From the NCBI RefSeq assembly GCF_900167455.1, contig NZ_FUWJ01000003.1:62001-126000 (forward strand): DNA of 64,000 nt. Direction: 5' to 3'. The translations under genes and the position numbers were made by a program. This document shows, piece by piece, positions 6,862-44,706 of the stretch (the first letter of the stretch is position 1; each line of letters opens with the position of its first letter). This DNA comes from Enhydrobacter aerosaccus (lineage in GTDB: Bacteria > Pseudomonadota > Alphaproteobacteria > Reyranellales > Reyranellaceae). The notes beneath the pieces are model-generated. The model saw only the letters and a program-made list of their open reading frames with translations. It did no database searches and was not told where the DNA came from.

Positions 6862-6889
6862 ACGGGCGATCTCTTGCGAGATCGCCCGT
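6862..6889 (-). terminator. Intrinsic terminator of the OmpA-like gene
   Basis: A perfect 12-bp stem (ACGGGCGATCTC / GAGATCGCCCGT) with a 4-nt loop. On the minus strand it is followed by a T-rich run (TTTCGTTTG). It lies 44 bp beyond the stop of the porin gene at 6934. The plus-strand side has no T-run, so it serves the minus-strand gene. Confidence 0.85.
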
Positions 6890-6933
6890 CCGGTCTGCCC
6901 CTTGAGGGTGGGGCGGTAAGTCTTGCGGATCGC

Positions 6934-8294: not shown

Positions 8295-9320
8295 ATGCCC
8301 GGCACCATGAAAGCCGCCGTCGTCCACACGCTCGGCGCCCCGCTTGTCATCGAGGACGTCCCGGTGCCGGAGCCCGGCCCGCACCAGATCCTGGTCAAGA
8401 TTGCCGCCACCGGCGTCTGCCACACCGATCTGCACGCGGTGAAGGGCGACTGGCCGGTGAAGCCGTCGGTGCCATTCATCCCCGGCCACGAGGGCGTCGG
8501 CATGGTCGCCAAGGCCGGGCGCGAGGTCAGGCGGGTCAAGGAAGGCGACCGGGTCGGCGTTCCCTGGCTTCACACGGCCTGCGGCTACTGCCCGCACTGC
8601 CGCACCGGCTGGGAGACGCTGTGCGGCGCGCAGAAGAACACCGGCTACTCCATCAACGGCACCTTCGCCGGCTACACGCTTGCCGACCCCGATTATGTCG
8701 GCCGCCTGCCCGACACGCTGGACTGGGGGCCGGCGGCGCCGGTCCTGTGCGCCGGCGTCACCGTCTACAAGGGGCTGAAGGAAACCGAGGTGAAGCCCGG
8801 CGAATGGGTGGCGATCTCGGGCATCGGCGGCCTCGGCCACATGGCCGTCCAGTATGCCAAGGCGATGGGCATGCATGTCGCGGCCATCGATGTGCACGCC
8901 GACAAGCTCGCCCTGGCCAGACAGCTCGGCGCCGACATCGCGATCGATGCGCGCGCGGCTGATCCGGCGCAGGCGCTGCAGGCCCAGCTCGGCGGCGTGC
9001 ACGGCGTGCTGGTCACGGCGGTATCGCCCAAGGCGTTCGAGCAGGCGTTCGGTGCGCTGCGGCCGCACGGCACCATGGCGCTGGTCGGCCTGCCGCCGGG
9101 TTCCTTCGCCATGCCGATCTTCGACACGGTGCTGAAGCGGATCACGGTGCGCGGCTCGATCGTCGGCACGCGCCAGGATCTCGAGGAGGCGCTGGAGTTC
9201 GCAGGCGACGGCGCGGTCGCCGCCCACTTCTCCTGGGACCGGCTCGAAAACATCAATGCCATTTTCGCGCGCATGGAACAGGGCGGCATCGACGGCCGCA
9301 TCGTCCTGCAGATGGATTAG
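8295..9320 (+). CDS. adhP: Zinc-dependent alcohol dehydrogenase AdhP
   Basis: A 341-residue medium-chain NAD(P)-dependent alcohol dehydrogenase converting primary alcohols such as ethanol to aldehydes, or the reverse. Catalytic-zinc ligands are visible as C42 in G-V-C-H-T-D and H65-E66 in G-H-E-G-V-G; the structural zinc is held by C96, C99, C102 and C110. The Rossmann glycine motif is GIGGLGHMAVQ. The start ATG at 8295 follows GGGAGAG; a second ATG at 8307 would remove four residues. The FNR/FixK-type box upstream suggests induction at low oxygen, where ethanol or aldehyde turnover helps redox balance. Its 3' end lies 2 bp from the end of the convergent oxygenase gene. Confidence 0.93.
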   Translation: MPGTMKAAVVHTLGAPLVIEDVPVPEPGPHQILVKIAATGVCHTDLHAVKGDWPVKPSVPFIPGHEGVGMVAKAGREVRRVKEGDRVGVPWLHTACGYCPHCRTGWETLCGAQKNTGYSINGTFAGYTLADPDYVGRLPDTLDWGPAAPVLCAGVTVYKGLKETEVKPGEWVAISGIGGLGHMAVQYAKAMGMHVAAIDVHADKLALARQLGADIAIDARAADPAQALQAQLGGVHGVLVTAVSPKAFEQAFGALRPHGTMALVGLPPGSFAMPIFDTVLKRITVRGSIVGTRQDLEEALEFAGDGAVAAHFSWDRLENINAIFARMEQGGIDGRIVLQMD

Positions 9321-9322
9321 AC

Positions 9323-9979
9323 CTACACGGCGAGATTGAAGGCGATCGAGATGCGCTCGGTGCGGCCGCGATAGGGCCTGACCTGATGCAGAAGCCAGGC
9401 GGGAAAGATCACCATACGGCCTGGCTTGGGTTGGATCCGCTCGGTGGTGCCGGCAGTGAGGCTGCCCGACATGCGCAAATGCGGCGCGTTCATCACTGGC
9501 AGGGGGCCGCGCGGATCGATGAATTCGAGCTCACCGCCCAACGAGGGATCGGCGGCGATACCGCCATCGTCGACATAATAGACGCCGGACCAGTAGGCGC
9601 CCGGATGGGAATGGAGGTCGTTGGCATCGCCGCTGCGATTGATGTTGGCCCACATGTTGCCGAGCCATGTCACGGCAAAATGGCCGGGATAGGGGCCCTG
9701 ACCGCTCGTTCCGTTGATGTCCGTCGTCATGCGATTGGCGACGTTGCGGGCAAAGGCAAGAAGCTGGATCGCGGCCGGTCCGCCCCAGCGATCCATGTCC
9801 CAGCTCGACTGCCAGCCGCCTATGTTGGTTTTCTGTGTCGTAGGATGCGTGCGCGAGCGCTGCTCGATCACCTGACGCAGCTCGGCATTGAGCTTGGGCG
9901 CATCCGGGACCTCGAACATCACGATAGGCGTGGAGAATAGCGGGACGATCTGAGGAGCAGGCGCAGCACTCATAGGCAA
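9323..9979 (-). CDS. Putative 2-oxoglutarate/Fe(II) oxygenase (TIGR02466 type)
   Basis: A 218-residue protein matching the putative 2OG-Fe(II) oxygenase family. The signature region is WANINRSGDANDLHSHPGAYWSGVYYVD near residue 112, offering the first iron-ligand histidine. A second histidine is in W-L-L-H-Q-V, and the arginine in T-E-R-I-S-I-A-F-N would hold 2-oxoglutarate. These match a double-stranded beta-helix oxygenase. Its substrate is unknown; related genes occur in phage and bacterial genomes. It is a single gene, convergent with adhP. Either ATG at 9979 or 9973 could be used. Confidence 0.8.
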   Translation of the reverse strand: MPMSAAPAPQIVPLFSTPIVMFEVPDAPKLNAELRQVIEQRSRTHPTTQKTNIGGWQSSWDMDRWGGPAAIQLLAFARNVANRMTTDINGTSGQGPYPGHFAVTWLGNMWANINRSGDANDLHSHPGAYWSGVYYVDDGGIAADPSLGGELEFIDPRGPLPVMNAPHLRMSGSLTAGTTERIQPKPGRMVIFPAWLLHQVRPYRGRTERISIAFNLAV

Positions 9980-10162
9980 CTCACGTGAGGATTGCCTGTT
10001 ATTTTACAATGGGCTGCGTTTCCGAGATGCTGGACGCAACATCAAAGCAGCCATGCTTTCTCAACGCGAACTTTCACGCTCTTGTGAGTCGCGCAGATAC
10101 GCTGCAGATCGGTCATGCGCAAGCGCGCTGCAGCATCACCCTGTCGTGAAGAGACCAAGTAT

Positions 10163-10194
10163 GTATCGACGTTACTTACTCGTGTCGTCGATAC
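10163..10194. repeat. Inverted repeat GTATCGACG..CGTCGATAC
   Basis: Perfect 9-bp arms at 10163-10171 and 10186-10194 with a 14-nt loop, 16 bp beyond the stop of hyuB. It could form an mRNA-end hairpin for the long minus-strand hyu operon, but no T-run follows on that strand. The rest of the 230-bp gap (9980-10209) shows nothing else recognisable. Confidence 0.5.
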
Positions 10195-10209
10195 CGTGTC
10201 GTCCTCACA

Positions 10210-11958
10210 TTACTCCGCCGCTATCCTGGTGCGCAGCTTCGCTGTCTCATCGACATCGACCTCGAAGTCCGCCGTTATGACCACACCGTACAGGTCGCGC
10301 GCCCTGTCGCGCGAGACGAGTCCCTTCTCGACATCCTGCACGACCTTGTCGACGGGCCGCTTCATCGGGTCACCATAGCCACCGCCACCCGGCATCGACA
10401 CGCGCAGCCGCTCGCCGACCGGTATGGAGGAATGCGCCTTGGGCGAGAGTTCCTTGCCCGATACCAGCTCGACCCGACCGGTCGTGCCATCCCGGCCGCC
10501 GTGCCGTCCGCGCGGCGGGAAGACAACGCGGTCGAACGAGGTCGAGATCGCGAACGGCTTGTTCTCCGCTGTCTCGATCTCCATCACCTGCCCCAGGCCG
10601 CCGCGATATTCGCCGGCGCCGCCCGAGTCGGTGCGATACTCCTTGCTCCAGATCAGCACCGGCGCATTGGTCTCGGTGATCTCGACCGGCACGTTGCGCA
10701 CGCCGCTGGGGAAAGCCGTGGCCGACAGGCCATCGAGCTTGGGTCGCGCGCCGGTGCCGCCGGAATGAAAGCCGGTGACGTTGAACGACGTCGCGTCCTT
10801 CAGCACCTCCGGATCGGCATCGACGCGGCCCATGCCGCCCATCAGCCGCACGTTCCACAGGCACGACGTGCCCTCTGCCGGCACGCCATTGGGCAGCGCC
10901 TGCGCCAGGCAGCCGAACACGACGTCAGGCAGCATCTGGCCGATGATGCTGCGCGCCGCCACCGGCGCCGGATGCTTGGCATTCAGGATGCTGCCTTCGG
11001 GCGCGGTGACGCGAATGGTGGCGAGCGAGGCCGCATTGTTCGGCACGTGCGGCGCCACGATGCACTTCACGCCGAAGGAGGTGTAGGCCTCGGTGTAGCA
11101 GAGCGGCACGTTGATGCCGAGCTGCACCATGCCGGGCGACCCGGCGAAATCGACGTCGATGCCATCGGGCCCGATGGTGAGCTTGGCCTTGAGCTCCATC
11201 GTCTTGCCGTTGATGCCGTCGACCCACATCGTGTTGTGATAGGTGCCGTGCGGCAGCTTGTTGATGGCGGCCAAGCTTGCCTCGCGCGAATGATCGAGGA
11301 TGTGCTCGGCGAGATCATCGAGATGCTCGAGCCCGAACTCGTCCATCATCGCGACCAGACGCTTGCCGCCGACCTCGTTGCTGGCGATCTCGGAATAGAT
11401 GTCGCCGATCACCTGCACCGGCTCGCGCACATTGGCTTTGATGATATCGATCAGCCACTCGTTGATCTCGCCGCGGTCGACGATCTTGGTGATGGGGATA
11501 TAGAGCCCTTCCTCATAGACCTGGTTGGCAGCGCCCATGATGCCGCGACCACCGATATCGACGACATGCAGCGTGCAGGCGAACAGTCCGACCGGCTTGC
11601 CACGCCGGAAGGTCGGCGTGACGATCACGATATCGTTGAGATGGCCGGTGCCCTGCCACGGATCGTTGACGATGAAGGCATCGCCCTCGTTCATCTTCGC
11701 GAGCGGAATCTTGTCGAGCACGTAACCCGTGCTCATGGCCATCGAGTTGACGTGGCCCGGCGTGCCGGTGACGGCCTGGGCCAGCATGCGGCCCTTCGTG
11801 TCGTAGACACCGGCCGAGAGATCGCCCGCCTCGCGCGTGGCGGTGCCGAAGGCGGTACGCACCAGTGTCTGCGCCTGCTCCTCGACAACGGAGATCAGGC
11901 GGTTCCACATCACCTGGTATTCGATGCGGCTCAGCGGATGATTGGACCTGCTGCTCAT
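10210..11958 (-). CDS. hyuB: Hydantoinase B / oxoprolinase family subunit
   Basis: A 582-residue HyuB-type subunit. Together with HyuA it forms an ATP-dependent hydrolase that opens five-membered cyclic amides such as hydantoins, N-methylhydantoin or 5-oxoproline. The N-terminus (Y-Q-V-M-W-N-R-L-I-S-V-V-E-E) and the stretch GHVNSMAMSTGYVLDKIP followed by DAFIVNDPWQGTGHLND near residues 75-105 are characteristic. The C-terminal GGGGYGDPMKRPVDKV block is also typical. It overlaps hyuA by 4 bp (start inside the ATGA stop), indicating translational coupling. It is the last gene of a seven-gene operon that begins with a peptide-type ABC importer, so the imported molecule is probably its substrate. 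Confidence 0.93.
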   Translation of the reverse strand: MSSRSNHPLSRIEYQVMWNRLISVVEEQAQTLVRTAFGTATREAGDLSAGVYDTKGRMLAQAVTGTPGHVNSMAMSTGYVLDKIPLAKMNEGDAFIVNDPWQGTGHLNDIVIVTPTFRRGKPVGLFACTLHVVDIGGRGIMGAANQVYEEGLYIPITKIVDRGEINEWLIDIIKANVREPVQVIGDIYSEIASNEVGGKRLVAMMDEFGLEHLDDLAEHILDHSREASLAAINKLPHGTYHNTMWVDGINGKTMELKAKLTIGPDGIDVDFAGSPGMVQLGINVPLCYTEAYTSFGVKCIVAPHVPNNAASLATIRVTAPEGSILNAKHPAPVAARSIIGQMLPDVVFGCLAQALPNGVPAEGTSCLWNVRLMGGMGRVDADPEVLKDATSFNVTGFHSGGTGARPKLDGLSATAFPSGVRNVPVEITETNAPVLIWSKEYRTDSGGAGEYRGGLGQVMEIETAENKPFAISTSFDRVVFPPRGRHGGRDGTTGRVELVSGKELSPKAHSSIPVGERLRVSMPGGGGYGDPMKRPVDKVVQDVEKGLVSRDRARDLYGVVITADFEVDVDETAKLRTRIAAE

Positions 11959-31857: not shown

Positions 31858-32930
31858 ACCCTCTTCTTAGCACGAGCCGGCGGCTCGGGCTTCGATGGAA
31901 TGGTCTGCTCGTAGCCCGGAATCATCGACAGCGCCTGCTTCACAGGATCAGCCGTCCAGGCGCGTGTAACAAAATCGCCATGAAGATCGGCGCCGCCGCA
32001 AGAGACGAACGCCATCGTGCCGGGCGCCAGGCTGGGCGGCAGTGCGCTGACATACCGAATACGGCGCTTGGCGAGCATATTCTGCAGCGCTGCATTGTCG
32101 TCGCGCGTCGAGTCGGTGTAGGCACTCAACAAGAAGCCGAGCTGGCGCCGCGCTGCGGCCCAGCCTGCGAACTTGTCCTCGTCGCCGTAAAGCGAGTCCA
32201 TCAGGATCACGCCCTTCACGCGGTAGACCGCGCCTCCGCGCTCAAGCGCGTAGGCTGTCGACAGATAGCCGCCACTATAGGAGATGATCACGACCGGCGC
32301 CGCGTTGAACCGGGGGCCGGCCCGCTTGTCGCCGTAGAGCCGCATCAGTCGCTCGGCCGCTTCGTCGATGTAGGCGGCAAAATGGCCAGGCCGCCAGAAA
32401 TTGCCGGCGCTCGAATCGGCAGCGTCGACCGCGAGCTGAGGCGCCACCAGCGCCACGTTCTTTCCGGATTCCGAAACCTGGCGCGGCACTCCCTGGCGCT
32501 GCATCACATCGCGCTCGAGCGTGGCCCCCTGGCCATGCAGGAACATCACGATCAGCGACGGCAGTTCCGGGTTGAAGCCGGCCGGAAGATACAGCAGCGA
32601 GCGACGATCCGAGTAGGTCGTGTCTTCCCAGCAGATATCGCCGCGCAGGGTTGTGTGGCCGCGGCGCTTGCCGTCGCGCACATCGAGGAACGGCTTGTTG
32701 GTGCCCGGGATGAAGCCGCGATAGGGAAACGGCGAGGCATTGAAATCGACCAGCTGGGTCTTCGCCTCTTTCAAGGGCTGCAGCCCGGCGCTCGACCGAA
32801 CGGCGGGCGCCGGGGGCGCCGGCTTAGGTGCCGGACGCGCCGATTGCTTCTTGGAGGCTTGCTTGGTCGTTCGCGCGCGCGCTGCCGTGGGCAAGAGCAG
32901 AAACCCTAGCAGCAGCGCCCGGCGCTTCAC
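31854..32930 (-). CDS. Exported alpha/beta-hydrolase-like protein
   Basis: A 358-residue protein with a signal peptide (MKRRALLLGFLLLPTAARA), a low-complexity Lys/Ala/Pro stretch to about residue 50, and a hydrolase-like domain. The core shows SLIVMFLHGQGATLERDV and the candidate nucleophile elbow I-I-S-Y-S-G-G-Y-L near residue 215. A late aspartate or histidine completing a triad is plausible (GGADLHGDFV near residue 315) but not proven. Substrate unknown. It overlaps its neighbours by 4 bp on both sides, linking it to the membrane spermidine-synthase-like gene upstream and the HD gene downstream. Confidence 0.7.
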   Translation of the reverse strand: MKRRALLLGFLLLPTAARARTTKQASKKQSARPAPKPAPPAPAVRSSAGLQPLKEAKTQLVDFNASPFPYRGFIPGTNKPFLDVRDGKRRGHTTLRGDICWEDTTYSDRRSLLYLPAGFNPELPSLIVMFLHGQGATLERDVMQRQGVPRQVSESGKNVALVAPQLAVDAADSSAGNFWRPGHFAAYIDEAAERLMRLYGDKRAGPRFNAAPVVIISYSGGYLSTAYALERGGAVYRVKGVILMDSLYGDEDKFAGWAAARRQLGFLLSAYTDSTRDDNAALQNMLAKRRIRYVSALPPSLAPGTMAFVSCGGADLHGDFVTRAWTADPVKQALSMIPGYEQTIPSKPEPPARAKKRV

Positions 32931-35581
32931 GCGACCGCAAGCCGCTTCTCACTGAGCGGCTTCAGCACGGAGAAGAACGCGGGCAAGGCGACGAGATAGG
33001 CAATCGCCCCCACCAGCACCACGGCCGGCAGACCGAAACTCGTCGCCACGATCGGCACGAGGGCCGCGCCGATGACGGAGAAGCAGCCGTTCACGCCCCA
33101 GGCCCACAGGAACATATGATCCTTGCCCAGGCGCCCCAGCGCGGTCATCGCCGTGGGCATGGGGAAACCCATCAGGAAGGCCGGCGGCAGAAGCAACAGC
33201 AGGCAAAGCGCGATGCGCAGCAGATAGGGCAGCGTGCCGACCCAGTCGAGCGCGTAGTCGATGGCAAAGGCGTAGAGCGCCAGGATCGCGAAGATCGCCA
33301 GGAACACGCGCGGCATGAAGCTGCGCGCCCGCTCGAAGAAGCGCTCCGAGGCGAAGCTGCCGAGGCCGGAGAACACCAGCATGCCGGTGATCAGCACCGA
33401 GGCGGAAACGGTGGCGTTGGAGAGAGCCAGCACGAAATGGGAGATCATGCCCACTTCGACGGTGATGTAGCCTAGCCCCAGGCAGAGGAAATACACCATG
33501 GTGCCGAACTTGCCGGGATAACGGCTGAAGATCGTGCGCCAGCCGAAGATCACGGGAAAGAGCACGAGGGTGAAGGCGAAGATTGCGGCAATGCCAAGCG
33601 TCGCCCACAGCAGCAGATAACCCCACTCGTCCTGCACCAGCTCCAGGCGGTCGAGGAAATTCAGCAGATCCTTCACCTTGATATAGGCGGCGAAGTACGG
33701 CTGGTGATTGGTGAGGATGCGCGTGTCGAACACATACTGGTCCGCCACCTTGTCCCAGCCGCCATTCACCAGGAAGTACCAGGCGAGACGGCCCATCGTG
33801 GTGGCCGGAACCAGAGGCGGCGGCGGCGCGCCGTCATCCTTGGCACCGGACGCGTTGGCGAGTTCCGGCGGCGGCTTGTCGTGCGGCTCGTCGCTGGCCG
33901 CCTTGTCCGACGGCGCCGTCGGATCGGCCGGCGGTCCGGCATAGAAGAACTGGTCGCGGTAATCCTGCAGGATCTGGGAAAGCCCGGCCGTATCGATCTG
34001 GATACCCGGATAGTAGATCTCGTCGAACGACATCGCCTTGGTGTGCTCGTTGAGCTTGGCGATATCCTCCGGCGTGAACCCGCCGCGCTTGTAGAGCACC
34101 GTCGAGGTCGAGAGATAGGCGGCCGCGACGTAGAAGTTCTTGGCGACGTCCTGGCCTTCGATCTCACGCGCCGCCGCTACCATGGTCGCGTAGAGCTTGA
34201 GCACCGACTTGGGCGGTTCTTCCTTGTTCCAGAGCGTGACCGACAGGATGCCGCCGGGCTTCAAGGCCCGCATATAGGCGGCCATCGCCTCGCGGGTGTA
34301 GGAGTACTTCTCCACGATCGCGAAGCCGCCCGGGCTCGACAAGCCCGCCGAATCGGCCAGCGAGAGGTCGATGACGTCGTAGTGGTTCTTGGTGTGCGCG
34401 AGGTAGAGGCGGCCGTCGTAATCGACGACCGTCACTTTCGGATTGTTGAGGATATCGCCGGTGAAGGCGCGCAGTCCCTTGTCCTCGCGGAATGCCGTCA
34501 GGATGGCCGGATTACCCTCAGCCACCGTCACGTGCTCGGACCCTTCCTTCAGCGCCACCGCCGTCGAGATGCCGCCGCCGAACTGGACCACGAACGTGTC
34601 GGGCTTCTGCTTCAGCACATAGGGATAGTACATCGGCAGGTAGCGGAAATAGGCGACCTCGTCCTGCGTCAGGTCCTTGATAATGCCCGACGGTCCGTCC
34701 GAATCGATATACAGACCGAGATAGGCGTTCTCCGGCATCGTCTTCAGGTTGAAGGCGGCGTTGTCAGAGAGACCCGGCGCGAAATGCAGGTACGAGCTCG
34801 AATAGACCTCCATGTAGCCGAACGGCGAGGCGCGCTCGTAGGTCCGCTGGTTGTCCGGGAACTTGCGGGCATAGGCGACGCCCTTGTAGTCCGACACGGC
34901 GAGCTTGGGGATGCCAAGCGCATCCGGCAGCAGATAGTGAGCGCCGGCCGACAGCACGGCCACGACCACGATGGCGACGAGGCCGCCACGATCGCGCATC
35001 GACACGAACCACAGCAGGCCGCCGGCCAGCCACAGCAGCAGCGGCGCCATGATCAGGTTCTCGGGATTGAAGACGTACATGGCCAGCAGCACGGATAGAC
35101 CGCACAGGCCCGAGCCCGCCATGTCGGCGAAGTAGACGCGATTGAACGTCTTCTTCGCCTTCAGGAAGACGACACCGAGATAGAGCGCGCCGGCCAGGAA
35201 CGGCAGGAAGTAGAGAACGAAGTTGGCCAGCAGACGCCACTTCTGCATCGGATCGGACAACAGGAAGATGGCGTTGAACGGCACCTGCTGGGCAGCGAGG
35301 TTGCAGGCCACCATCAACGGACCGAACGCCAGCAGCGCGACCTTGACCGCGCCCAGCCAGCGCCGCTCGAACCAGCCCTTGCCCACGCACATCACGGCCG
35401 AGGTCAGGCCGAAGCCGAACATGGCCAGGCTCACGACCAGCGAGCCGAAATGGGCCCAGCTGCCGACCGAGAAGACGCGCATGATGCCGATTTGCAGCGC
35501 GATGATGCTGCCGGCCACCAGTCCGACGGAGAGATAGAAAGAGAGAGGCGGCCGATTGTCGAGATCGACGGAGACGGTCAA
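32927..35581 (-). CDS. Large membrane protein with spermidine-synthase-like methyltransferase domain
   Basis: An 884-residue polytopic protein. Several hydrophobic helices occupy about residues 15-215. A soluble spermidine-synthase/Rossmann-like domain follows with a degenerate SAM-type loop (VVQFGGGISTAVAL near residue 335) and V-T-V-V-D-Y-D-G-R. A Pro/Asp-rich linker near residue 580-610 leads to another block of seven or so helices (about 655-880). The organisation matches fused MFS/spermidine-synthase-like proteins, whose function is mostly unknown; the polyamine-type active site is not convincingly conserved. Start is TTG at 35579-35581 with AGGAG eight bases upstream. A terminator separates it from the methyltransferase gene upstream. 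Confidence 0.75.
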   Translation of the reverse strand: MTVSVDLDNRPPLSFYLSVGLVAGSIIALQIGIMRVFSVGSWAHFGSLVVSLAMFGFGLTSAVMCVGKGWFERRWLGAVKVALLAFGPLMVACNLAAQQVPFNAIFLLSDPMQKWRLLANFVLYFLPFLAGALYLGVVFLKAKKTFNRVYFADMAGSGLCGLSVLLAMYVFNPENLIMAPLLLWLAGGLLWFVSMRDRGGLVAIVVVAVLSAGAHYLLPDALGIPKLAVSDYKGVAYARKFPDNQRTYERASPFGYMEVYSSSYLHFAPGLSDNAAFNLKTMPENAYLGLYIDSDGPSGIIKDLTQDEVAYFRYLPMYYPYVLKQKPDTFVVQFGGGISTAVALKEGSEHVTVAEGNPAILTAFREDKGLRAFTGDILNNPKVTVVDYDGRLYLAHTKNHYDVIDLSLADSAGLSSPGGFAIVEKYSYTREAMAAYMRALKPGGILSVTLWNKEEPPKSVLKLYATMVAAAREIEGQDVAKNFYVAAAYLSTSTVLYKRGGFTPEDIAKLNEHTKAMSFDEIYYPGIQIDTAGLSQILQDYRDQFFYAGPPADPTAPSDKAASDEPHDKPPPELANASGAKDDGAPPPPLVPATTMGRLAWYFLVNGGWDKVADQYVFDTRILTNHQPYFAAYIKVKDLLNFLDRLELVQDEWGYLLLWATLGIAAIFAFTLVLFPVIFGWRTIFSRYPGKFGTMVYFLCLGLGYITVEVGMISHFVLALSNATVSASVLITGMLVFSGLGSFASERFFERARSFMPRVFLAIFAILALYAFAIDYALDWVGTLPYLLRIALCLLLLLPPAFLMGFPMPTAMTALGRLGKDHMFLWAWGVNGCFSVIGAALVPIVATSFGLPAVVLVGAIAYLVALPAFFSVLKPLSEKRLAVA

Positions 35582-35671: not shown

Positions 35672-36553
35672 TTAGCGGTTGTGCGTGCCGACGATCTTGT
35701 CGCCTTCGAGCTTGGTGAAGGGCACGAACGGCACGATCTTGCCGCCGTAGATGTCCTCACGCGTCGTCGTGATCGACCCGTCGGCGCCCTGGATCTTGGC
35801 CACCTTGAGCACCCGCTGGGCGCCCGGGGGGCCAACCGGGATGACCATGAGACCGCCGGACTTCAGCTGCTGCAGGAGCGGCGGCGGCACGTGATCGATA
35901 CCGCAGGTCACGATGATCTTGTCGAAGGGCGCCGCCTCTTCCCAGCCATAGTAGCCGTCGGCGTTCTTGCTCTTGATGTGCTGGTACTCGGTGTAGCCCT
36001 TGTCGATCAGCTTGTCGTAGAGCGCGCGGGTGCGCTCGGCGAGCGGCTTGATGATCTCGATCGTGTAGGCGTTCTCGGTCAGGTTGGCGACATAGGCCGA
36101 TTGCACGCCCGAGCCGGTGCCGATCTCCAGCACCTTGTCCGTACGCTGGATCTCGAGGACGTTGGTCATGCGGCCTTGCAGATGCGGGCCGGACATGGTC
36201 ACGCCATACCCGATATCGAGGAAGTTGTGCTCGTAGGCGCGCTTGTGGATCGCCGGATTGACCGAGGCGAATTCCTCGCGCGGGGTCAGCAGGAAGGCGC
36301 GGATCGTCGCCGCACTCCAGATGTCTTTGTTCTTGAGCAGCGCCTGGAAGCGGTCCCAGCGCTGGCCGAGGAAGAACGGATCCTCGCCGCGAGCCTTGCC
36401 CCATTCGATGAAATGCTCGCGGGTATCGGTCGGGGGATTGAGATCCCAGCTGTAGGGTTTGATGGTGGCAGCCGACGCTGGCGAAACCCAGCCCGCTGCG
36501 ACGCTGGAAGCGGCCAGGGCCGCCGTACCGGAGACGAAGTCGCGTCTCTTCAA
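35672..36553 (-). CDS. Tat-exported protein-L-isoaspartate O-methyltransferase-like protein
   Basis: A 293-residue protein whose C-terminal two thirds match Pcm (PIMT). The SAM loop is VLEIGTGSGVQSAYVA, and PFDKIIVTCGIDHVPPPLLQQLKSGGLMVIPVG follows. PIMT methylates isoaspartyl residues in aged proteins and is normally cytoplasmic. Here the N-terminus is a clear twin-arginine signal (K-R-R-D-F-V-S-G-T-A-A-L-A-A) with cleavage likely after S-P-A-S-A-A. A spacer of about 90 residues precedes the catalytic core. Start is a TTG at 36551-36553 because AAGGAGGA sits just upstream and the Tat signal then begins at residue 1; an upstream in-frame start at 36604 would put 17 extra residues before it. 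Confidence 0.85.
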   Translation of the reverse strand: MKRRDFVSGTAALAASSVAAGWVSPASAATIKPYSWDLNPPTDTREHFIEWGKARGEDPFFLGQRWDRFQALLKNKDIWSAATIRAFLLTPREEFASVNPAIHKRAYEHNFLDIGYGVTMSGPHLQGRMTNVLEIQRTDKVLEIGTGSGVQSAYVANLTENAYTIEIIKPLAERTRALYDKLIDKGYTEYQHIKSKNADGYYGWEEAAPFDKIIVTCGIDHVPPPLLQQLKSGGLMVIPVGPPGAQRVLKVAKIQGADGSITTTREDIYGGKIVPFVPFTKLEGDKIVGTHNR

Positions 36554-36710
36554 GATGTCCTCCTTGGCGCGGGCCCCGCGACGAGGGGAAAGGGGCAGCC
36601 GCACGGCGACTAGATACGGGAATTGTGGCAGATTTGCCAGTGCGGTTCCTACGCGTCAGACTGTCCCGCGATAGTCGCTCGATGAGACTGCGGCGGCCCG
36701 ATCGGGAGCG

Positions 36711-37904
36711 TCAGACGACCTGCGCCTGCCGGATGGCCGCGATCTCCGCCGGTGAGTACCCGGCCTCGCCCAGGACCTCATCGGTATGCTGGCCCAGCGT
36801 TGCCGGCGGACGCTCGACCGACCCGCCACCATGCTCCAGCCGGAAGCCCGACCCGACCACCTTGATGGGACCATGCTCGGTTTCGACCGTCTGGAGCACC
36901 GTCCGGTGCTGAAACAGGTCGAGCTGGGCGGTCTCGGGAATACTGAGAACCCGGCCGGCGGGGACGTCGGCCTTCTCGAACCGCTCGGACCAGACGGCCG
37001 AGGTCTCCTTCTTCAGGGCCTCCTCGACGATCTCGTGCAGCGCCTTGTTGTTCTGGATCCGGGTCGGCCAGTCGACGAAGCGCGGGTCAGCCAGCGCGTC
37101 GTCGCGTCCCAGCACCTTCATCAGGCGCTGGAACTGCGGGTCGGTCATCACGGCCAGCACGATCCAGCCGTCCCGGGTCTTGAACAGGTTGCCGGTAGGC
37201 TTGCGGGTCACCGACAGGTTGGCACTCTGCTCGTGCACCCGGCCGGTGATCATGTGCTCGGTAAATTGCTGGGCCAGATACGCCATCACGGCATCGATCA
37301 TGGCCACGTCGACGAGCTGGCCCTTGCCGGTATGGGTACGTTGATAGAGGGCCGAGGCGACGCCCAGGGCGGCCGTCGCTCCCGACATGACATCGGCGCC
37401 GGCGAAGCCGACACGGGTCGGGCCGTTTTGGGGGAATCCCGTGATCGACATCAGGCCCGACATGGCCTGGATCATGCCGTCGAAGGCCGCGGTCTTGGCC
37501 GCCGGCCCGACCTGGCCGAAGCCTGAGACGGCGCAATAGATGAGGCGGGGATTGATCGCCTTCAGCGTCTCGTAGCCGATGCCGAGCTTGTCCATGACGC
37601 CGGGCCGGAAATTTTCCATCACCACATCGGCCTGGGCGGCCAGGCGCTTCACGATCTCGATCGCCTTGGGCTTCTTGAGATCGAGCGTGATCGACCGCTT
37701 GCCGGCGTTGACCGCGATCCAGGGCGCCGCAAGGCCGCGCTTCTCCCACTCGTTGGCGCGGGTGCCGTAGCGCATGTCGTCGCCCTCGCGCGACTCCACC
37801 TTGACGACGTCGGCCCCCAGCAGCGCGAGCTGATAGGAACCGTACGGGCCCGCCAGGACGCGGGTGAAATCGAGGACCTTGATGCCGGTAAAAGGTTTGC
37901 TCAT
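36711..37904 (-). CDS. Family III CoA-transferase (CaiB/BaiF type)
   Basis: A 397-residue CoA-transferase. The N-terminal block KVLDFTRVLAGPYGSYQLALLGADVVKVE and the catalytic-aspartate region VGFAGAD171VMSG are typical of formyl-CoA/carnitine-CoA transferases. It moves CoA between two carboxylic acids without ATP. The ATG at 37902-37904 lies within the stop of the GrdB-like selenoprotein gene (ATGA), so the two are translationally coupled; the acid pair is unknown. This coupling makes a shared pathway likely. Confidence 0.92.
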   Translation of the reverse strand: MSKPFTGIKVLDFTRVLAGPYGSYQLALLGADVVKVESREGDDMRYGTRANEWEKRGLAAPWIAVNAGKRSITLDLKKPKAIEIVKRLAAQADVVMENFRPGVMDKLGIGYETLKAINPRLIYCAVSGFGQVGPAAKTAAFDGMIQAMSGLMSITGFPQNGPTRVGFAGADVMSGATAALGVASALYQRTHTGKGQLVDVAMIDAVMAYLAQQFTEHMITGRVHEQSANLSVTRKPTGNLFKTRDGWIVLAVMTDPQFQRLMKVLGRDDALADPRFVDWPTRIQNNKALHEIVEEALKKETSAVWSERFEKADVPAGRVLSIPETAQLDLFQHRTVLQTVETEHGPIKVVGSGFRLEHGGGSVERPPATLGQHTDEVLGEAGYSPAEIAAIRQAQVV

Positions 37905-38920
37905 GGCTCGGAGGGCGCGACTCCAGATGCGCTCATGGATTGTTGAAACAGAGGAGAGACGCGTCCCTGGAGTGGCGCGCTCCCAGCAAGGACATCACCC
38001 CCCCCTGCCTGCTTGCGCTGGGCGAGCGCCACCTGCTTCACCTTGTCGAACTCGGCGCGACGCCTCGCGACCTCTTCGGCCGGCATGCGCTCTATGTTGT
38101 TGTAGTCCTGCTTCCAATCGCCGTCGTCGTTCCAGCGCAGTGGCGACTGCACCGTCGTACGCGGGCCGACGGCACTCTCCAGGACCTTCAACGCCAGATC
38201 GAGGGTGAAGCGCTGGGTGTCGGGCTCGTGCGGCTTGCCACAGGAATTGCCAAGCGGGAAATCGCTGAACAGGAAGCGCGGCACGCCGGCCCATTCGACG
38301 ATGTCCTTCGCCGCCCCCATGATCACGGTGGGGATGCCGTTTCGTTCCAGATATCGAGCGGTCAGACTCACGGTCTGATGGCAGACGGGTCACGTAGGCA
38401 CGAGCAGGGCGGCATCGACCTGATCCTGACGGCAGCGCGCCAGGATCTCCGGTGCATCGGTCTCGAGCGTCACCCGATGGCTACGATTGGTGGGTGCGCC
38501 ATGGAACCGCGGCGCCAGCTTGAACCGGCCCTGCTGCGCAAACTCGCGCATCAGCGACAGAGGAAACCAGGTATTGCTGTCCGTCGCCGTGGTGTGCTTG
38601 CGATCGTAGCCGATATGGCTGATGCGCGTGTCGTGATCGACCGCCGTGTCACCGGAATAGACGGTGTAGAACTTCGCCGCCGCGTTGTAGGCGGCTCCTG
38701 GTCCCTGGTCGCCCTTGTCGGGCTGATAGGGTGCGGCTGTACTGATGAGCGCGAGGACGCTGTCCTTCAGCGGCTTCCTGAGCGGCTGGAACGGCGCATC
38801 GACATAGTGCGCCCAGCGATAGGGATTGTCGTAGCCCAGCGCGAGATAGTACTCGCGCGTGCGCCGCATATACTCGATCGGCGCATCGAATTCCGGCGCA
38901 AAATCAATCGTATCGACCAT
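37901..38920 (-). CDS. GrdB-family selenoprotein candidate with in-frame TGA (Sec177), UxxC motif
   Basis: Read through one TGA at 38390-38392, this is a single 339-residue protein of the glycine/sarcosine/betaine reductase component-B family. Landmarks before the TGA are LALISTAAPYQP, then SHIGYDRKHTTATDSNTWFP and LSLMREFAQQGRF, and the run-in D-A-A-L-L-V-P-T. After it come P-V-C-H-Q-T-V-S, YLERNGIPTVI and F-P-L-G-N-S-C-G-K-P. The TGA falls exactly where GrdB has selenocysteine, and C180 gives the same U-x-x-C spacing. Both halves are in one frame with uniform coding quality, which argues against decay. Start: ATG at 38918-38920 after CTGGAG; an in-frame TTG at 38981-38983 is an alternative. 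A SECIS-like hairpin follows the TGA, and the last 25 codons overlap a dispersed repeat. No selA/B/C/D genes are in view. Confidence 0.85.
37912..37983. repeat. Dispersed repeat copies inside the end of the GrdB-like gene
   Basis: The 17-mer CTGGAGTGGCGCGCTCC at 37967-37983 is the exact reverse complement of 2802-2818. A second, degenerate copy (GCGCGACTCCAGATGCGCTCAT, about 37915-37936) lies closer to the stop and resembles the sequence around 2806-2828. They encode the tail S-A-P-L-Q-G-R-V-S and M-S-A-S-G-V-A-P-S-E-P of the selenoprotein, which has no family counterpart. Confidence 0.6.
38362..38378 (-). promoter_or_regulatory. Candidate bacterial SECIS hairpin
   Basis: On the transcript, TCAGAC-CGTGA-GTCTGA forms a 6-bp stem with a 5-nt loop. 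Seventeen bases lie between the UGA and the loop, and the second loop base is G. Both fit the published bacterial SECIS rules (loop 16-37 nt from UGA, a G in the first two loop positions). A competing 5-bp hairpin (GTCTG-CCAT-CAGAC, 38373-38386) shares the CAGAC arm. Confidence 0.55.
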
Positions 38921-39081
38921 TTCTCCAGCCTGCGGCGACCGCTTTCCGAAGTCAAACGCGCCTTCCGCAGAGAGGTCCCGCAACCCGACCGACCTGAACC
39001 ATGCTTAATCTGGCAGCCATAGTGCGGCCCAACTCGGCCGCGTTATATAGGTTGCGAAACGCACGAACTGGAGTGCAGGGC

Positions 39082-40929
39082 ATGGCCATCGGACGGCGCA
39101 AGGTACTGGCGGGGGGCGCGGCTCTCTGGGTGGGGGCACCGGCGATCCTGCGGGCCCAGACGTCGTCCAAGATTCACGTCGGCCATGGCATCGCCATGCA
39201 CGGCGAACCCAAATATGGCGCCGATCCCGGGCCACTGGACTTCCTCAATCCCGCTGCGCCGAAGACGGGCGCGGTCAAGTTCGGCACGCTGGGCACCTAC
39301 GACTCCCTGCATCCGTTCACACTCAAGGGCGTCCCGGCAGCCGGACTGGGCTCGCTGTGGGAGACGCTGTGCTGGCACAGTCCGGAGGAGGCCTTTACCG
39401 CCTACGGCTTGATTGCCGAAACCATCGAGTGGCCCGAGGACCGGTCCTGGGTCGCCTTCACCTTGCGCGCCCAGGCCAAGTGGCACGATGGCACGGCCAT
39501 CACGCCGGAGGATGTCGTGTTCAGCTTCGACATCCTGAAGAGCAAGGGCCGGCCGACCTACGCCGCCTATTACGCCGATGTCATCAAGGCCGAGAAGACC
39601 GGTGATGCCAAGGTGCTGTTCACGTTCCGCAACGACAAGAACCGCGAGCTGCCGCTGATCCTCGGGCAGCTGCCGATCCTGCCCTCGACGTGGTGGAAGG
39701 GGAAGGATTTCGAGAAAGTGTCGCTGGAGCCGGCGCTCGGCAGCGGACCGTACAAGGTCGATTCGGTCGATGTGGGACGCTCGATCACCTATCGCCGCGT
39801 CCCCACCTGGTGGGCCAGGGACCTGTGGTTCAACCGCGGACGGAACAACTTCGAGACCATCCGCTACGACTACTATCGCGACAACACCATCATCTTCGAA
39901 GCCTTCAAGGGCGGAGACACCGATATCCGGCGCGAGAATTCGGGCCGCAACTGGATGATCGGCTACAAGGATCTGCCGGCCATCGCCGATGGCCGCATCC
40001 AGCGGGCCGAGATTGCGCATGAGAATCCGGCGCCGATGCAGGGCTTCGTCTTCAATACGCGCCGTGACATCTTCAAGCATCGGAATGTACGCGAGGCCAT
40101 TGGCCTGATGTACGACTTCGAATGGCAGAACAAGAATCTGAGCTACGGCTTCTATCAGCGCACGCGTTCCTACTTCGGCAATTGCGAGCTCGAGGCCAAG
40201 GGCCTGCCCTCGCCGGAAGAACTCAAGATCCTGGAGCCCCTGCGCGGCAAGATTCCCGACGAGGTCTTCACTGCCGAATACAATCCACCCAAGACCGACG
40301 GCTCAGGCAATATCCGCGAGCAGGTGCGCAAGGCCATCCCGCTGCTGAAGGAAGCCGGCTGGGAGATCAAGGACGGCAAGATGACCGACAAGAACGGTCG
40401 CAAGCTGGCCTTCGAGATCCTGCTGAACGACGCGGCGTTCGAGAAGATGGCCTTGCCGGTGAAGCAGAACCTCGAGCGGCTGGGCATCGACATGACGATC
40501 CGGACCGTCGACACCTCGCAATATCAGCGGCGTACCGACAACTACGATTTCGACATGGTGATCGACCTGTGGGCCGAATCGCTGTCGCCCGGCAACGAGC
40601 AGCGCGACTTCTGGGGATCCAAGGCCGCCGATATTCCGGGCGGGCGCAACACCATCGGCATCAAGGATCCGGCGATCGACCAACTGGTCGAGCTCATCAT
40701 TGCCGCGCCGGACCGCGAGAGCCTAGTCACGCGCACACGCGCGCTCGACCGTGTCCTGTCCTGGCACATGTTCGCCATCCCGCAATTCTATTCGGGCAAG
40801 GCGCTGGTGGCGTACTGGAACCGCTTCGGCCGGCCGTCGAAGACGGCCAAGTACGAACCGCTGGCCTTCGATACCTGGTGGGTCGACGAAGCCAAGGATC
40901 GGGCGCTGACGCGCGGAGAGAAGAAGTGA
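39082..40929 (+). CDS. yejA: YejA-like extracellular binding protein (SBP family 5)
   Basis: A 615-residue periplasmic binding protein of the YejA branch, recognised by HGIAMHGEPKYGADPGPLDF followed by NPAAPKTG and FGTLGTYDSLHPF near the mature N-terminus. In enterics the YejABEF importer takes up peptides, including the microcin C antibiotic. The ATG at 39082 opens a Tat-like signal (G-R-R-K-V-L-A-G-G-A-A-L) ending at ILRAQ; GGAG lies upstream. First gene of a four-gene importer on the plus strand, divergent from the selenoprotein gene. Confidence 0.92.
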   Translation: MAIGRRKVLAGGAALWVGAPAILRAQTSSKIHVGHGIAMHGEPKYGADPGPLDFLNPAAPKTGAVKFGTLGTYDSLHPFTLKGVPAAGLGSLWETLCWHSPEEAFTAYGLIAETIEWPEDRSWVAFTLRAQAKWHDGTAITPEDVVFSFDILKSKGRPTYAAYYADVIKAEKTGDAKVLFTFRNDKNRELPLILGQLPILPSTWWKGKDFEKVSLEPALGSGPYKVDSVDVGRSITYRRVPTWWARDLWFNRGRNNFETIRYDYYRDNTIIFEAFKGGDTDIRRENSGRNWMIGYKDLPAIADGRIQRAEIAHENPAPMQGFVFNTRRDIFKHRNVREAIGLMYDFEWQNKNLSYGFYQRTRSYFGNCELEAKGLPSPEELKILEPLRGKIPDEVFTAEYNPPKTDGSGNIREQVRKAIPLLKEAGWEIKDGKMTDKNGRKLAFEILLNDAAFEKMALPVKQNLERLGIDMTIRTVDTSQYQRRTDNYDFDMVIDLWAESLSPGNEQRDFWGSKAADIPGGRNTIGIKDPAIDQLVELIIAAPDRESLVTRTRALDRVLSWHMFAIPQFYSGKALVAYWNRFGRPSKTAKYEPLAFDTWWVDEAKDRALTRGEKK

Positions 40930-40968
40930 TCGCACGGCCCGGGGTCCAATGAAGAAGACCCGCTCCTG

Positions 40969-42069
40969 ATGCTCGGCTACATCCTGCGGCGCCTGATCCT
41001 GATCGTGCCGACCCTGTTCGGCATCATGGTGCTCAATTTCTTCATCATCCAGACGGCGCCGGGCGGACCGGTGGAGCAGATGATCGCCCAGATCCAGGGC
41101 ACCGCCGTCGGCGCGACAGAGCGCTTTTCCGGCAGTACGTCCGGCGGCGAGCTGATGCAGCGCGGTCAAACCGATGCCGGCAACAGCACCTATCGCGGCG
41201 CCCGCGGCCTGCCGCCCGAACTGATCAAGCGCATCGAGAAGATGTACGGCTTCGACAAGCCGATCTACGAGCGCTTCTGGCTGATGATGAAGAACTACGC
41301 CGTCTTCGATTTCGGCGACAGCTTCTTCCGCAACCAGCGCGTCGTCGACCTGGTGCTCGACAAGATGCCGGTCTCGCTGTCGCTCGGCCTGTGGACCACG
41401 CTGCTGGTTTATCTGGTCTCGATCCCGCTCGGCATCGCCAAGGCGGTGCGCGATGGCAGCCGGTTCGACATTTCGAGCTCGACCGCGCTGATCGCCCTCA
41501 ATGCCATCCCCGGCTTCCTGTTCGCGATACTGTTGGTCGTGCTGTTCGCCGGCGGCCGCTATTTCCAATGGTTTCCCTTGCGCGGGCTGGTTTCGGACGA
41601 CTGGCACAGCCTCGGCCTGCTGGGGAAGATGACCGACTATCTCTGGCACATGGTGCTGCCCATCGCGTCGATGGTCGTCGGCGGTTTCGCCGGACTGACA
41701 TTCCTGACCAAGAATTCGTTCGTCGAGGAGATCGGCAAGCAATATGTGATGACCGCGCGTGCCAAGGGCCTGGTCGAGAGCCGGGTGCTCTACGGCCATG
41801 TCTTCCGCAACGCCATGCTGATCGTGATCGCGGGTTTCCCGGCGGCCTTCGTCGGCGCCTTGTTCACCGGCGCGCTGCTGACAGAAGTGATCTTCTCGCT
41901 CGACGGCCTCGGACTGCTGGGCTTCGAGGCGGCGATCAATCGCGACTATCCGGTGATCTTCGGAACGCTCTATTTCTTCGGCCTGCTCGGGCTGGTCATG
42001 AACATCGTCGGCGACCTCATCTATACGGTCGTCGATCCGCGAATCGACTTCGCGGCGCGGGCTGCCTGA
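40969..42069 (+). CDS. yejB: YejB-like peptide ABC permease
   Basis: A 366-residue permease. It carries the family N-terminus LGYILRRLILIVPTLFGIMV. The long periplasmic insert typical of YejB (PGGPVEQMIAQIQG, then LPPELIKRIEKMYGFDKP) and the ATPase-contact region YVMTARAKGLVESRVLYGHVFRNAML follow. It pairs with YejE. It starts 39 bp after yejA. Confidence 0.93.
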   Translation: MLGYILRRLILIVPTLFGIMVLNFFIIQTAPGGPVEQMIAQIQGTAVGATERFSGSTSGGELMQRGQTDAGNSTYRGARGLPPELIKRIEKMYGFDKPIYERFWLMMKNYAVFDFGDSFFRNQRVVDLVLDKMPVSLSLGLWTTLLVYLVSIPLGIAKAVRDGSRFDISSSTALIALNAIPGFLFAILLVVLFAGGRYFQWFPLRGLVSDDWHSLGLLGKMTDYLWHMVLPIASMVVGGFAGLTFLTKNSFVEEIGKQYVMTARAKGLVESRVLYGHVFRNAMLIVIAGFPAAFVGALFTGALLTEVIFSLDGLGLLGFEAAINRDYPVIFGTLYFFGLLGLVMNIVGDLIYTVVDPRIDFAARAA

Positions 42070-42079
42070 GGATCCGCCG

Positions 42080-43099
42080 GTGAGACCCGCCAATCGTCGA
42101 CGCCTGGCCCAGTTCCGCGGCAACCGCCGCGGCATGATCTCGCTGGCCGTGTTCGCCACGATGTTCTTCCTGTCGCTGTTCGCCGAGTTCCTGGCCAACG
42201 ACCGACCGATCCTCATCCGCTATGACGGCCACTTCTATTCGCCGGTGTTCCACGACTACCCCGAGACGACCTTCGGCGGCGACCTGCCGACCAACGCCGT
42301 CTACACCGATACCGAGCTGCAGCATCTGATCGAGGCCAAGGGCTGGATGCTGTGGCCGCTGATCCCCTACCGCTACGACACCACCGTGACCGGCGAAGCC
42401 CGCGGCTCGCTGCTGCCGCCGTCGCTGGCGCATCCCCTCGGCACCGACGATCAGGCACGGGATGTGCTGGCCCGGGTGATCTATGGCTTCCGCATCTCCG
42501 TGCTGTTCGGCCTAGCCCTCACGATCCTGAGCTCGATCGTGGGGATCGCGGCTGGCGCGGTGCAGGGCTATTTCGGCGGTTGGGTCGATCTGTCTTTCCA
42601 GAGATTCCTCGAGATCTGGTCGAGCATGCCGACGCTCTATCTGCTGATCATCCTGGCCAGCCTGGTCCAGCCGGGCTTCTGGATCCTGCTCGGCATCATG
42701 CTGCTGTTCAGCTGGATGGCGCTGGTGGGCTATGTGCGGGCGGAGTTCCTGCGCGGCCGCAATTTCGACTATGTGCGCGCCGCCCGGGCGCTCGGAATGC
42801 TGGACCTGCGCATCATGATCCGGCACATCCTGCCCAACGCCATGACCGCGAGCCTCACCTACCTGCCCTTCATCCTGGCCGGCTCCGTGACCACACTGAC
42901 CTCGCTCGACTTCCTCGGATTCGGCCTGCCGCCGGGCTCGCCGTCGCTGGGTGAGCTGGTGCTGCAAGGCAAGAACAACCTGACGGCGCCGTGGCTCGCC
43001 TTCACGGCCTTTTCGATCATCGCCCTGATGCTGTCGCTTCTGGTCTTCATCGGCGAAGCGGTGCGCGACGCCTTCAATCCGCGCAAGGCGCTGGCATGA
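42080..43099 (+). CDS. yejE: YejE-like peptide ABC permease
   Basis: A 339-residue permease with the YejE-specific periplasmic insert after helix 1 (NDRPILIRYDGHFYSPVFHD, then TFGGDLPTNAVYTD) and the HPLGTDDQARDVLARVIYGFR motif. The ATPase-contact loop is RAARALGMLDLRIMIRHILPN. Start is a GTG at 42080, 10 bp after the yejB stop. Its stop overlaps yejF (ATGA). Confidence 0.93.
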   Translation: MRPANRRRLAQFRGNRRGMISLAVFATMFFLSLFAEFLANDRPILIRYDGHFYSPVFHDYPETTFGGDLPTNAVYTDTELQHLIEAKGWMLWPLIPYRYDTTVTGEARGSLLPPSLAHPLGTDDQARDVLARVIYGFRISVLFGLALTILSSIVGIAAGAVQGYFGGWVDLSFQRFLEIWSSMPTLYLLIILASLVQPGFWILLGIMLLFSWMALVGYVRAEFLRGRNFDYVRAARALGMLDLRIMIRHILPNAMTASLTYLPFILAGSVTTLTSLDFLGFGLPPGSPSLGELVLQGKNNLTAPWLAFTAFSIIALMLSLLVFIGEAVRDAFNPRKALA

Positions 43100-44706
43100 G
43101 CGAACCCGCCCTGCTCGAGGTCCGCGACCTGGCCGTGATCTTCGGCTCCGGTCCCGGCGCCGTGGCCGCCGTGAAGGGCGTGAGCTTCGACATCCGCCGC
43201 GGCGAGACCGTGGCGCTGGTTGGCGAGTCCGGATCGGGCAAATCGGTGACCGCCCTGTCGGTGCTGCAGCTCCTTCCCTATCCGACTGCGCGTCATCCAC
43301 GCGGCTCGATCCGATTCCGGGGCCAGGAGATGATCGGGGCGCCGGCACGCGACTTGCTGCAGGTTCGCGGCAATCGGGTCTCGATGATCTTCCAGGAACC
43401 GATGACCTCGCTCAATCCGCTGCACACGATCGAGCGACAGGTGAATGAAGTCCTGATCCTGCATAAAGGATTATCGCGCATGGCGGCGCGCAAGCGCACG
43501 CTCGAGCTGCTGGAGCAGGTCGGCATCCCCGATGCCGCCCGACGCCTCGACGCCTATCCGCACCAGCTCTCCGGCGGCCAGCGCCAGCGCGTGATGATCG
43601 CCATGGCGCTCGCCAACGAACCCGACCTCCTGATCGCCGACGAGCCGACCACGGCGCTGGACGTCACGATCCAGGCGCAGATCCTCAAGCTCCTGAAGAG
43701 CCTGCAGGCCAAGTACGGCATGGCCCTGTTGTTCATCACCCACGATCTCGGAATCGTGCGCAAGGTGGCGGACCGCGTCTGCGTGATGACGCAGGGCGAG
43801 ATCGTGGAGCAAGGGGCCGTCGGCGACGTCTTCGACCGGCCGCAGCATGCCTATACCCGGCATCTCCTGTCCGCCGAGCCCAAGGGCAAGCCTGTGGCGG
43901 TCGATCCCGCCGCCCGGGAGATCGTGCAGCTCGACGACCTCAAGGTTCACTTCCCGATCAAGCGCGGTTTGCTGCGCCGGACGATCGGCTATGTGAAGGC
44001 GGTCGACGGCGTGACCCTGACGCTCAAGGCGGGCCATACGATCGGGCTCGTCGGCGAATCGGGCTCGGGCAAGACGACCATCGGTCTTGCCCTCCTGCGA
44101 CTGGAGAGGAGCGAGGGCGGCATCCGCTTCGACGGGCAGGACCTGCAGGCGCTCAGCCAGCGCGAGATCCGGCCGCTGCGGCGGCAGATGCAGATCGTCT
44201 TCCAGGATCCGTTCAGCTCGCTCAGCCCCCGCATGACGGTGGCCGAGATCGTGGGCGAAGGGCTGGAGGTCCACGGCATCGGCACCGAGGCCGAGCGGGT
44301 GCGCCTGATCGACGAGGCCTTGCGCGAGGTCGGGCTGGATCCTCGCGTCCGCGACCGCTATCCGCACGAGTTCTCCGGCGGCCAGAGGCAGCGCATCGCC
44401 ATTGCTCGCGCTCTGGTCCTCAAGCCCCGATTCATCGTGCTCGACGAGCCCACCTCAGCGCTCGATATGAGCGTGCAGGCGCAGATCGTCGACCTGCTGC
44501 GCGACCTGCAGGCGCGCCACAAGCTGGCCTATCTGTTCATCAGCCATGACCTGAAAGTGGTGCGTGCACTCGCCGACGAAGTCGTGGTGTTGCGGCAAGG
44601 CCAAGTGGTCGAGCGGGGTTCTGCCGAACAGGTATTCACGACGCCGCAGACTCCCTATACCAAGGCGTTGATTGCGGCGGCCTTCAATCTCGAGACAGTC
44701 GCGTAA
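43096..44706 (+). CDS. yejF: YejF-like fused double ATPase
   Basis: A 536-residue protein made of two complete ABC ATPase domains in tandem. The first has Walker [10 protein letters not shown] and Walker [13 protein letters not shown]; the second has GESGSGKTT and [12 protein letters not shown]. Signatures [14 protein letters not shown] and [15 protein letters not shown] are both intact, so both sites should hydrolyse ATP. It powers YejB/YejE. The ATG at 43096 overlaps the yejE stop. Twenty bases after its end, ghrA begins. Confidence 0.93.

Follow-up and report, generated by a model that had tools for sequence, protein, structure and literature searches.

A predicted PrdB/GrdB-like selenoprotein and its family III CoA-transferase neighbor in Enhydrobacter aerosaccus

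A stretch of 64,000 nucleotides from the genome of Enhydrobacter aerosaccus (the window; positions 62,001 to 126,000 of contig NZ_FUWJ01000003.1, assembly GCF_900167455.1) carries a minus-strand gene that almost certainly encodes a selenoprotein of the PrdB/GrdB superfamily, directly followed by a gene for a family III coenzyme A (CoA) transferase. Comparison with related loci indicates that the selenoprotein gene forms a conserved two-gene unit with a dedicated lineage of family III CoA-transferase. The account that we favor combines a genuine selenoprotein, this two-gene CoA-transferase unit, and a CoA-linked reductive step that would operate without a pyruvoyl subunit. As a whole, with a mechanism that we infer, it comes close to an even chance of being right while staying on the doubtful side.

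An in-frame UGA at a conserved selenocysteine position

The frame running from 38920 to 37901 on the minus strand is uninterrupted if TGA is read as selenocysteine (Sec, U). Its sole internal TGA is codon 177, and the translated residues around U177 are DAALLVPT-U-PVCHQTVSL. The original prediction, made from the letters of the window, had described one TGA splitting an otherwise open frame at the selenocysteine position of the family, with U-x-x-C spacing. Both points are borne out: the TGA is found at 38392-38390, relatives show no further stop within the match, and their codon column holds only TGA or cysteine (Cys) codons.

From 170 relatives confirmed in a scan, the best 80 were used for this column. 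The codon aligned with U177 is TGA in 59 of them, TGC in 17, TGT in 4, and no other codon occurs; the 59 TGA and 21 Cys codons leave none of the random residues or extra stops that had been named beforehand as signs of a pseudogene. C180 of the UxxC motif is kept in all 80 relatives, of both Sec and Cys type, and the second Cys of UxxC is present in at least 90% of alignment A2 (46 members, paralogues included).

The machinery for Sec decoding, whose search had been proposed as a check, was found in full in the host genome (G000; 6.77 Mb, 30 contigs). The genes selA (578 bits) and selB (457 bits) and a tRNA-Sec (72.9 bits) lie together on one short stretch of contig C23, and selD (434.9 bits) is located on contig C15, all four being above their cut-offs. 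The tRNA-Sec beside selB has the anticodon TCA and is called tRNA-SeC by ARAGORN. It is positioned ~90 nt past the end of the SelB frame, which rules out for this genome the arrangement reported for other alphaproteobacteria, with tRNA-Sec nested in selB (PMC8124441). A second tRNA above the Rfam tRNA-Sec cut-off (G000:C17:1383546-1383631, 51.6 bits) is probably another long-arm tRNA.

A predicted selenocysteine insertion sequence (SECIS) hairpin follows the TGA (Table 1). Of 60 Sec genes, counting that of the window, all 60 have its six core pairs intact and 54 form all seven stem pairs, which none of 21 Cys genes does; the window gene is one of the six Sec genes with pair 14-32 open. In Sec genes, synonymous diversity is lower in the ten codons behind the TGA (0.085, mean 0.292) than in any other of 288 windows, and in Cys genes this stretch comes 166th of 288. 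Among 11 paralogue rows, paired letter changes are observed at 15-31, 17-29, 18-28, and 19-27, four of the six core pairs, and pair 14-32 is open in five rows. In these rows 72 of 77 cells are paired, compared with a mean of 59.5 and a maximum of 66 in 2000 shuffles; three of the rows are identical, and the nine distinct ones have 58 of 63 cells paired (shuffled mean 46.7, maximum 54). In alignment A1 (20 rows), the number of paired cells, the number of double-change cells, and the covariation score exceed those of all 500 shuffles. The evidence for the predicted SECIS is comparative, and the paralogues provide stronger covariation than A1. An Rfam search of the window returned no match.

The ratio of nonsynonymous to synonymous substitution rates (dN/dS), calculated against 11 relatives, is 0.027-0.279 before the TGA and 0.037-0.418 after it. 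The standard code reads TGA as a stop, and the gene might accordingly be a pseudogene, a split gene, or the product of a sequencing error. We give a real stop practically no chance, since the same codon is found in 59 of 80 relatives with Cys in the remainder, the SECIS is kept only together with TGA, purifying selection extends past the codon, and the machinery is complete; the TGA/Cys column, the SECIS, and dN/dS on both sides rule out pseudogene and error. Because machinery, codon column, selection after the TGA, and SECIS all point the same way, decoding of the UGA at codon 177 as selenocysteine by the host machinery is near-certain on sequence grounds.

Table 1. Features of the window discussed in the text (coordinates count from the first letter of the window)
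Feature	Positions	Strand	Remarks
PrdB/GrdB-like selenoprotein gene, conserved part (predicted)	38003..38920	-	306 codons, ATG at 38920; start and length agree with relatives of ~309 residues
In-frame TGA, selenocysteine codon 177 (predicted)	38390..38392	-	motif U-P-V-C; TGA/Cys column in relatives
SECIS hairpin (predicted)	38358..38382	-	stem 14-20/26-32 after the U of UGA (38379-38373 with 38367-38361), loop CGUGA, outer pairs 11-12/34-35
Frame extension in the host genome, after a run of eight G	37901..38002	-	intergenic sequence and repeat copy; stop TGA overlaps the next ATG
Family III (CaiB/BaiF type) CoA-transferase	36711..37904	-	PF02515, 400.7 bits
Divergent ATP-binding cassette (ABC) importer: SBP_bac_5 binding protein, two permease-like genes, one ATPase-like gene	39001..44706	+	SBP_bac_5, 202.9 bits, first gene

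Extent of the selenoprotein gene

The compared relatives terminate at ~309 residues, with a stop following ...AGVA or a similar ending. The frame in the window is ~31 codons longer and continues beyond the run of eight G, so that 37901-38002 is outside the conserved protein. The gene had been predicted to span 37901-38920; this holds for 38003-38920 and fails for 37901-38002, where relatives have already ended. The stop-start overlap with the CoA-transferase gene is a product of the frame extension, because the extension is intergenic sequence behind the G run. In some other loci, for example L150 and L151, the two genes have a short overlap of their own.

The repeat GAGCGCGCCACTCCAG is found at 37967-37982, inside the extended frame, and has four matches in the window with at most two mismatches, 0.16 being expected. 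Its copies are located at 2802-2859 and 37911-37982. A stretch similar to it lies between the same two genes in the relative L101.

Relationship to PrdB and GrdB

The best NCBIfam model for the window protein is PrdB, the Sec-bearing subunit of D-proline reductase (TIGR04483), which is matched at 8e-21 over positions 20-221 of a profile of 238; the score of 74.6 bits does not reach the equivalog cut-off of 300. The GrdF, GrdH, and GrdB models are matched at 2e-10 to 2e-8 in the C-terminal part of the profiles only, with 33.6 to 40.2 bits against cut-offs of 65.45 to 800. For the Pfam family GRDB (PF07355) the protein has 21.7 bits against a gathering cut-off of 22, a value exceeded by the Cys-type homologues L181 (25.5 bits) and L180 (39.3 bits). 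All 46 members of A2 match all five PrdB/GrdB-type models (E 0.001). The motif of the window protein, U-P-V-C-H-Q-T, lacks the third Cys of the GrdB motif, defined as UxxCxxC (PMC13188914).

These results place the window protein, by sequence, in the PrdB/GrdB superfamily, nearer to PrdB and, on the tests made, as neither PrdB nor GrdB. A full-length GrdB is ruled out by the restriction of the match to the C-terminal part of the GrdB profiles. The earlier description as GrdB-like thus survives as superfamily homology, while its closer sense is contradicted by the PrdB profile as best match, the C-terminal-only GrdB match, and the missing third Cys. A profile search against PDB sequences gave six weak, unrelated-looking matches, the best of them to a designed protein (4e-4).

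Partner subunits of the classical reductases had been predicted to be missing. For GrdA (PF04723) this agrees with the absence of matches in the host genome up to E 1, in a search where three control genomes matched, all below the cut-off. PF09338 (GrdE-type), which we take to cover PrdA as well, likewise gave no match in the host genome, nor in any control genome.

Four heme-copper oxidase genes above the cut-off are present in the host genome, in agreement with the predicted, apparently aerobic lifestyle. The protein could still serve as PrdB in an ordinary D-proline reductase with PrdA encoded elsewhere, as its best curated profile (8e-21) would have it. We consider this very improbable in view of the 74.6 bits against a cut-off of 300, the lack of a PF09338 match in the genome (in a search without positive control), the CoA-transferase as partner, and the aerobic oxidases of the host.

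The CoA-transferase partner

The nearest PDB chains of the CoA-transferase are formyl-CoA, CaiB/BaiF, YfdE, and succinate-hydroxymethylglutarate CoA-transferases. The aspartate in its GADVMSG motif aligns with the aspartate of two solved members and is presumably the catalytic one.

A CoA-transferase gene was counted as adjacent if located on the same strand and directly downstream, in loci that had at least 700 nt available there. Three loci were too short for this count, and the E-value limit left out the distant paralogue L184. A CoA-transferase gene accompanies the selenoprotein-family gene in 75 of the 87 loci counted. By type, these are 53 of 58 with TGA (counting the window), 18 of 20 with Cys, and 4 of 9 others. 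Together with the PF02515 score, this confirms the original identification of the coupled gene as a family III CoA-transferase. With the CoA-transferase of the window as query, the neighbor of the selenoprotein is the best match in nine of ten genomes (50-100% identity) and the second in the tenth, G091 (468.9 vs 475.7 bits). Apart from this exception, the other CoA-transferase copies listed have at most 44% identity. The pair has been kept while the two proteins diverged to ~66% and ~50% identity, and it spans several family-level groups, far beyond the host genus, with Sec and Cys types alike. Named strains that hold it are Reyranella soli, R. aquatilis, R. massiliensis, and Vineibacter terrae.

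A second link to CoA, non-homologous to the first, is suggested by locus L180 of an alphaproteobacterium. There, genes for an AMP-binding ligase, a Cys-type PrdB-like protein, a UPF0261 protein, and a phosphoenolpyruvate (PEP) hydrolase-like protein are arranged on one strand with short gaps (5719-10295, minus strand), and the AMP-binding gene is of acyl-CoA-ligase type, a different kind of enzyme that can likewise produce acyl-CoA. The run offers a clue to function.

A proposed CoA-linked reaction

We propose a CoA-linked mechanism because neither a PrdA/GrdE-type subunit (in the uncontrolled search) nor GrdA was found, and a CoA thioester could provide the activation instead. The proposal is an aerobic CoA-dependent selenoenzyme pathway in which the thioester would replace pyruvoyl/Schiff-base activation and a stand-alone PrdB-type selenolate would cleave a carbon-heteroatom bond. 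We put it forward tentatively, as possible though doubtful. The CoA-transferase would load CoA onto a small carboxylic acid bearing a leaving group near the carboxyl. The thioester would take the activating role played by the carbonyl group in proline and glycine reductase, making the neighboring carbon electrophilic, and the selenolate of U177 would attack either the activated carbon or the leaving heteroatom, so that the bond is cleaved reductively. A selenylsulfide between U177 and C180 would form and be reset by a donor of thioredoxin or glutathione type. The divergent ABC importer may bring in the substrate in part of the clade.

A CoA link would also fit a role of the selenol as acyl acceptor, with the product of the CoA-transferase passed to U177 as a selenoester, in a transfer rather than a reduction. 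The UxxC Cys, kept in all 80 relatives and at least 90% of the 46 A2 members, speaks for redox work, and we regard acyl transfer as improbable.

More weight attaches to the possibility that the protein is a true selenoprotein acting as a general thiol-disulfide or peroxide-type reductase, next to a CoA-transferase that shares its regulon without taking part in a common reaction. UxxC is a redox motif, the CoA-transferase is missing from 12 of the 87 loci (five of those Sec-type), and the neighbors of the paralogues are varied. Such a reductase is nonetheless unlikely, given the pairing with an orthologous partner across several family-level groups, in Sec and Cys types, and the homology to amino-acid reductase subunits.

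Several observations weigh against the CoA-linked account, among them those 12 loci. Many of the 87 loci belong to close relatives of one genus and are thus not independent. No CoA-transferase is found beside the more distant paralogues that were fetched, whose neighbors differ, and family III CoA-transferases are abundant in these genomes, the host having 14 that match at E 1e-60 or below. The L180 run is known from one genome. The GrdE/PrdA-type subunit was not found by a PF09338 search that lacked a positive control. The AlphaFold model of the protein is poor (predicted local distance difference test, pLDDT, 68), and Foldseek against the PDB gave nothing at E 0.001 or better. Two other results count against the SECIS rather than the CoA link. 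Within A1 by itself, a single pair shows changes in both of its bases, which 327 of 500 shuffles reach, and further pair types are fewer than in the shuffles (500 of 500). Single-sequence folding is not significant in the nine genes folded, of which six are Sec and three Cys (z -0.1 to -1.5).

Distribution and changes between Sec and Cys

In an order-wide search, 74 of 76 genomes have a match to the family. Many genomes of the host family have between three and six PrdB/GrdB-like matches, and one TGA is present in most of the order-wide matches among those listed, suggesting an expansion of PrdB/GrdB-like selenoproteins in this family. The five full-length first copies without a stop all have Cys at the column. 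In a draw of 398 genomes from the phylum, the family is present in 16, which represent 5 of 212 genera. Two of the 16 are Reyranella and have TGA, and the fourteen others all have Cys at the column.

The tree requires at least four changes between Sec and Cys, three of them forced by well-supported branches; long branches leave its deep parts unsure. Fifty of the 80 loci were sampled for selA, covering 21 Cys-type genomes and 28 genomes that hold 29 Sec loci. A selA above the cut-off was found in 19 of the 21 Cys-type and 26 of the 28 Sec-type genomes, the exceptions being G083 and G093 (Cys, no match), G101 (Sec, weak match), and G124 (Sec, partial match at a contig start). With selA retained in 19 of 21 Cys-type genomes, a change from Sec to Cys through loss of the machinery is unsupported.

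The host genome has a second, distant PrdB-like Sec gene at G000:C12:219012-219764 (minus strand; locus L184, 9013-9822), which matches TIGR04483 at 4.2e-27. It has the TGA and a rewritten SECIS stem with pair 14-32 open, and its neighbors are glutathione S-transferase (GST), TetR, and DUF1330 genes. At L070, in the same genus, two different PrdB-like Sec genes are arranged in tandem (778-1518 and 1642-2406) and perhaps encode two subunits.

Other genes of the window

The permeases and the ATPase of the divergent ABC importer were named by eye from their translations. Of 39 loci compared (from the 80, some being too short upstream), 16 contain a relative of the binding-protein frame, and the system may be a substrate importer in part of the clade only. 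On the minus strand, 32927-35581 encodes a protein of 884 residues with many hydrophobic stretches and a weak match to spermine synthase, below the cut-off. It is adjoined by a PCMT-type methyltransferase gene (35672-36604).

Comparison with known systems

Proline reductase is an enzyme known from anaerobes. Compared with PrdB of clostridial D-proline reductase (TIGR04483), the window protein has the UxxC motif and a near full-length profile match in common. It differs in falling far below the equivalog cut-off, in its greater length (~309 residues), in its CoA-transferase partner, and in its host with aerobic oxidases; no PrdA-type partner was seen, in the search lacking a control. With GrdB, GrdF, and GrdH, component B of glycine, sarcosine, and betaine reductase, it shares C-terminal homology that includes the Sec region. 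It differs from them in the absence of the N-terminal part and of the third Cys, and no GrdA was found in the genome. Reviews list PrdB and GrdB with their classical roles (PMC9312934, PMC13188914).

The kind of selenoprotein itself is already known; its CoA-transferase partner is the part that we did not find reported. In the literature searched, which lacks preprints and most subscription journals, we found no papers joining the selenoprotein with a CoA-transferase and none on a 'PrdB-like' protein, and Reyranella together with selenocysteine led to one unrelated paper only. The original prediction of an unfamiliar biochemistry has to be narrowed to this partner, as Sec-containing PrdB homologues from surface sea water have been published and aerobes commonly use Sec, making up 40.4% of Sec users according to PMC5029168. 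According to a 2006 survey (PMC1794560), the alphaproteobacteria then known to decode Sec had formate dehydrogenase as their sole selenoprotein, a statement beyond which the window selenoprotein would go.

In the Sargasso Sea, Sec-containing 'PrdB' was among the commonest selenoprotein families, with 42 Sec genes (2005, PMC1088965), and the Global Ocean Sampling (GOS) survey of 2008 counted 235 Sec and 110 Cys forms, assigned to pfam07355 (GRDB) with UxxC (PMC2398784). Like the window protein, these are UxxC selenoproteins with Sec and Cys forms, here from surface waters; the likeness is drawn by family name and motif. They are metagenome sequences that were labeled proline reductase on the basis of homology, and the accounts of the family in these two papers give proline reduction as its role and describe no operon or partner. 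If the sea-water proteins belong with the window protein, widespread selenium use in oxic habitats would have been misnamed as proline reductase. Through the conserved CoA-transferase partner, the real reaction could be approached in named strains, for which natural Cys versions of the same operon could serve as controls.

The FarB/FarE fluoroacetate operon of Cloacibacillus (PMC10838667) likewise contains a GrdB-like selenoprotein, for which cleavage of a bond other than C-N has been proposed. It differs in being anaerobic and in having a GrdE-type partner, a radical S-adenosylmethionine (SAM) gene, and an antiporter gene, and the four genes named for it do not include a CoA-transferase. By analogy, this operon provides a precedent for Grd-type proteins with a proposed action on a different bond.

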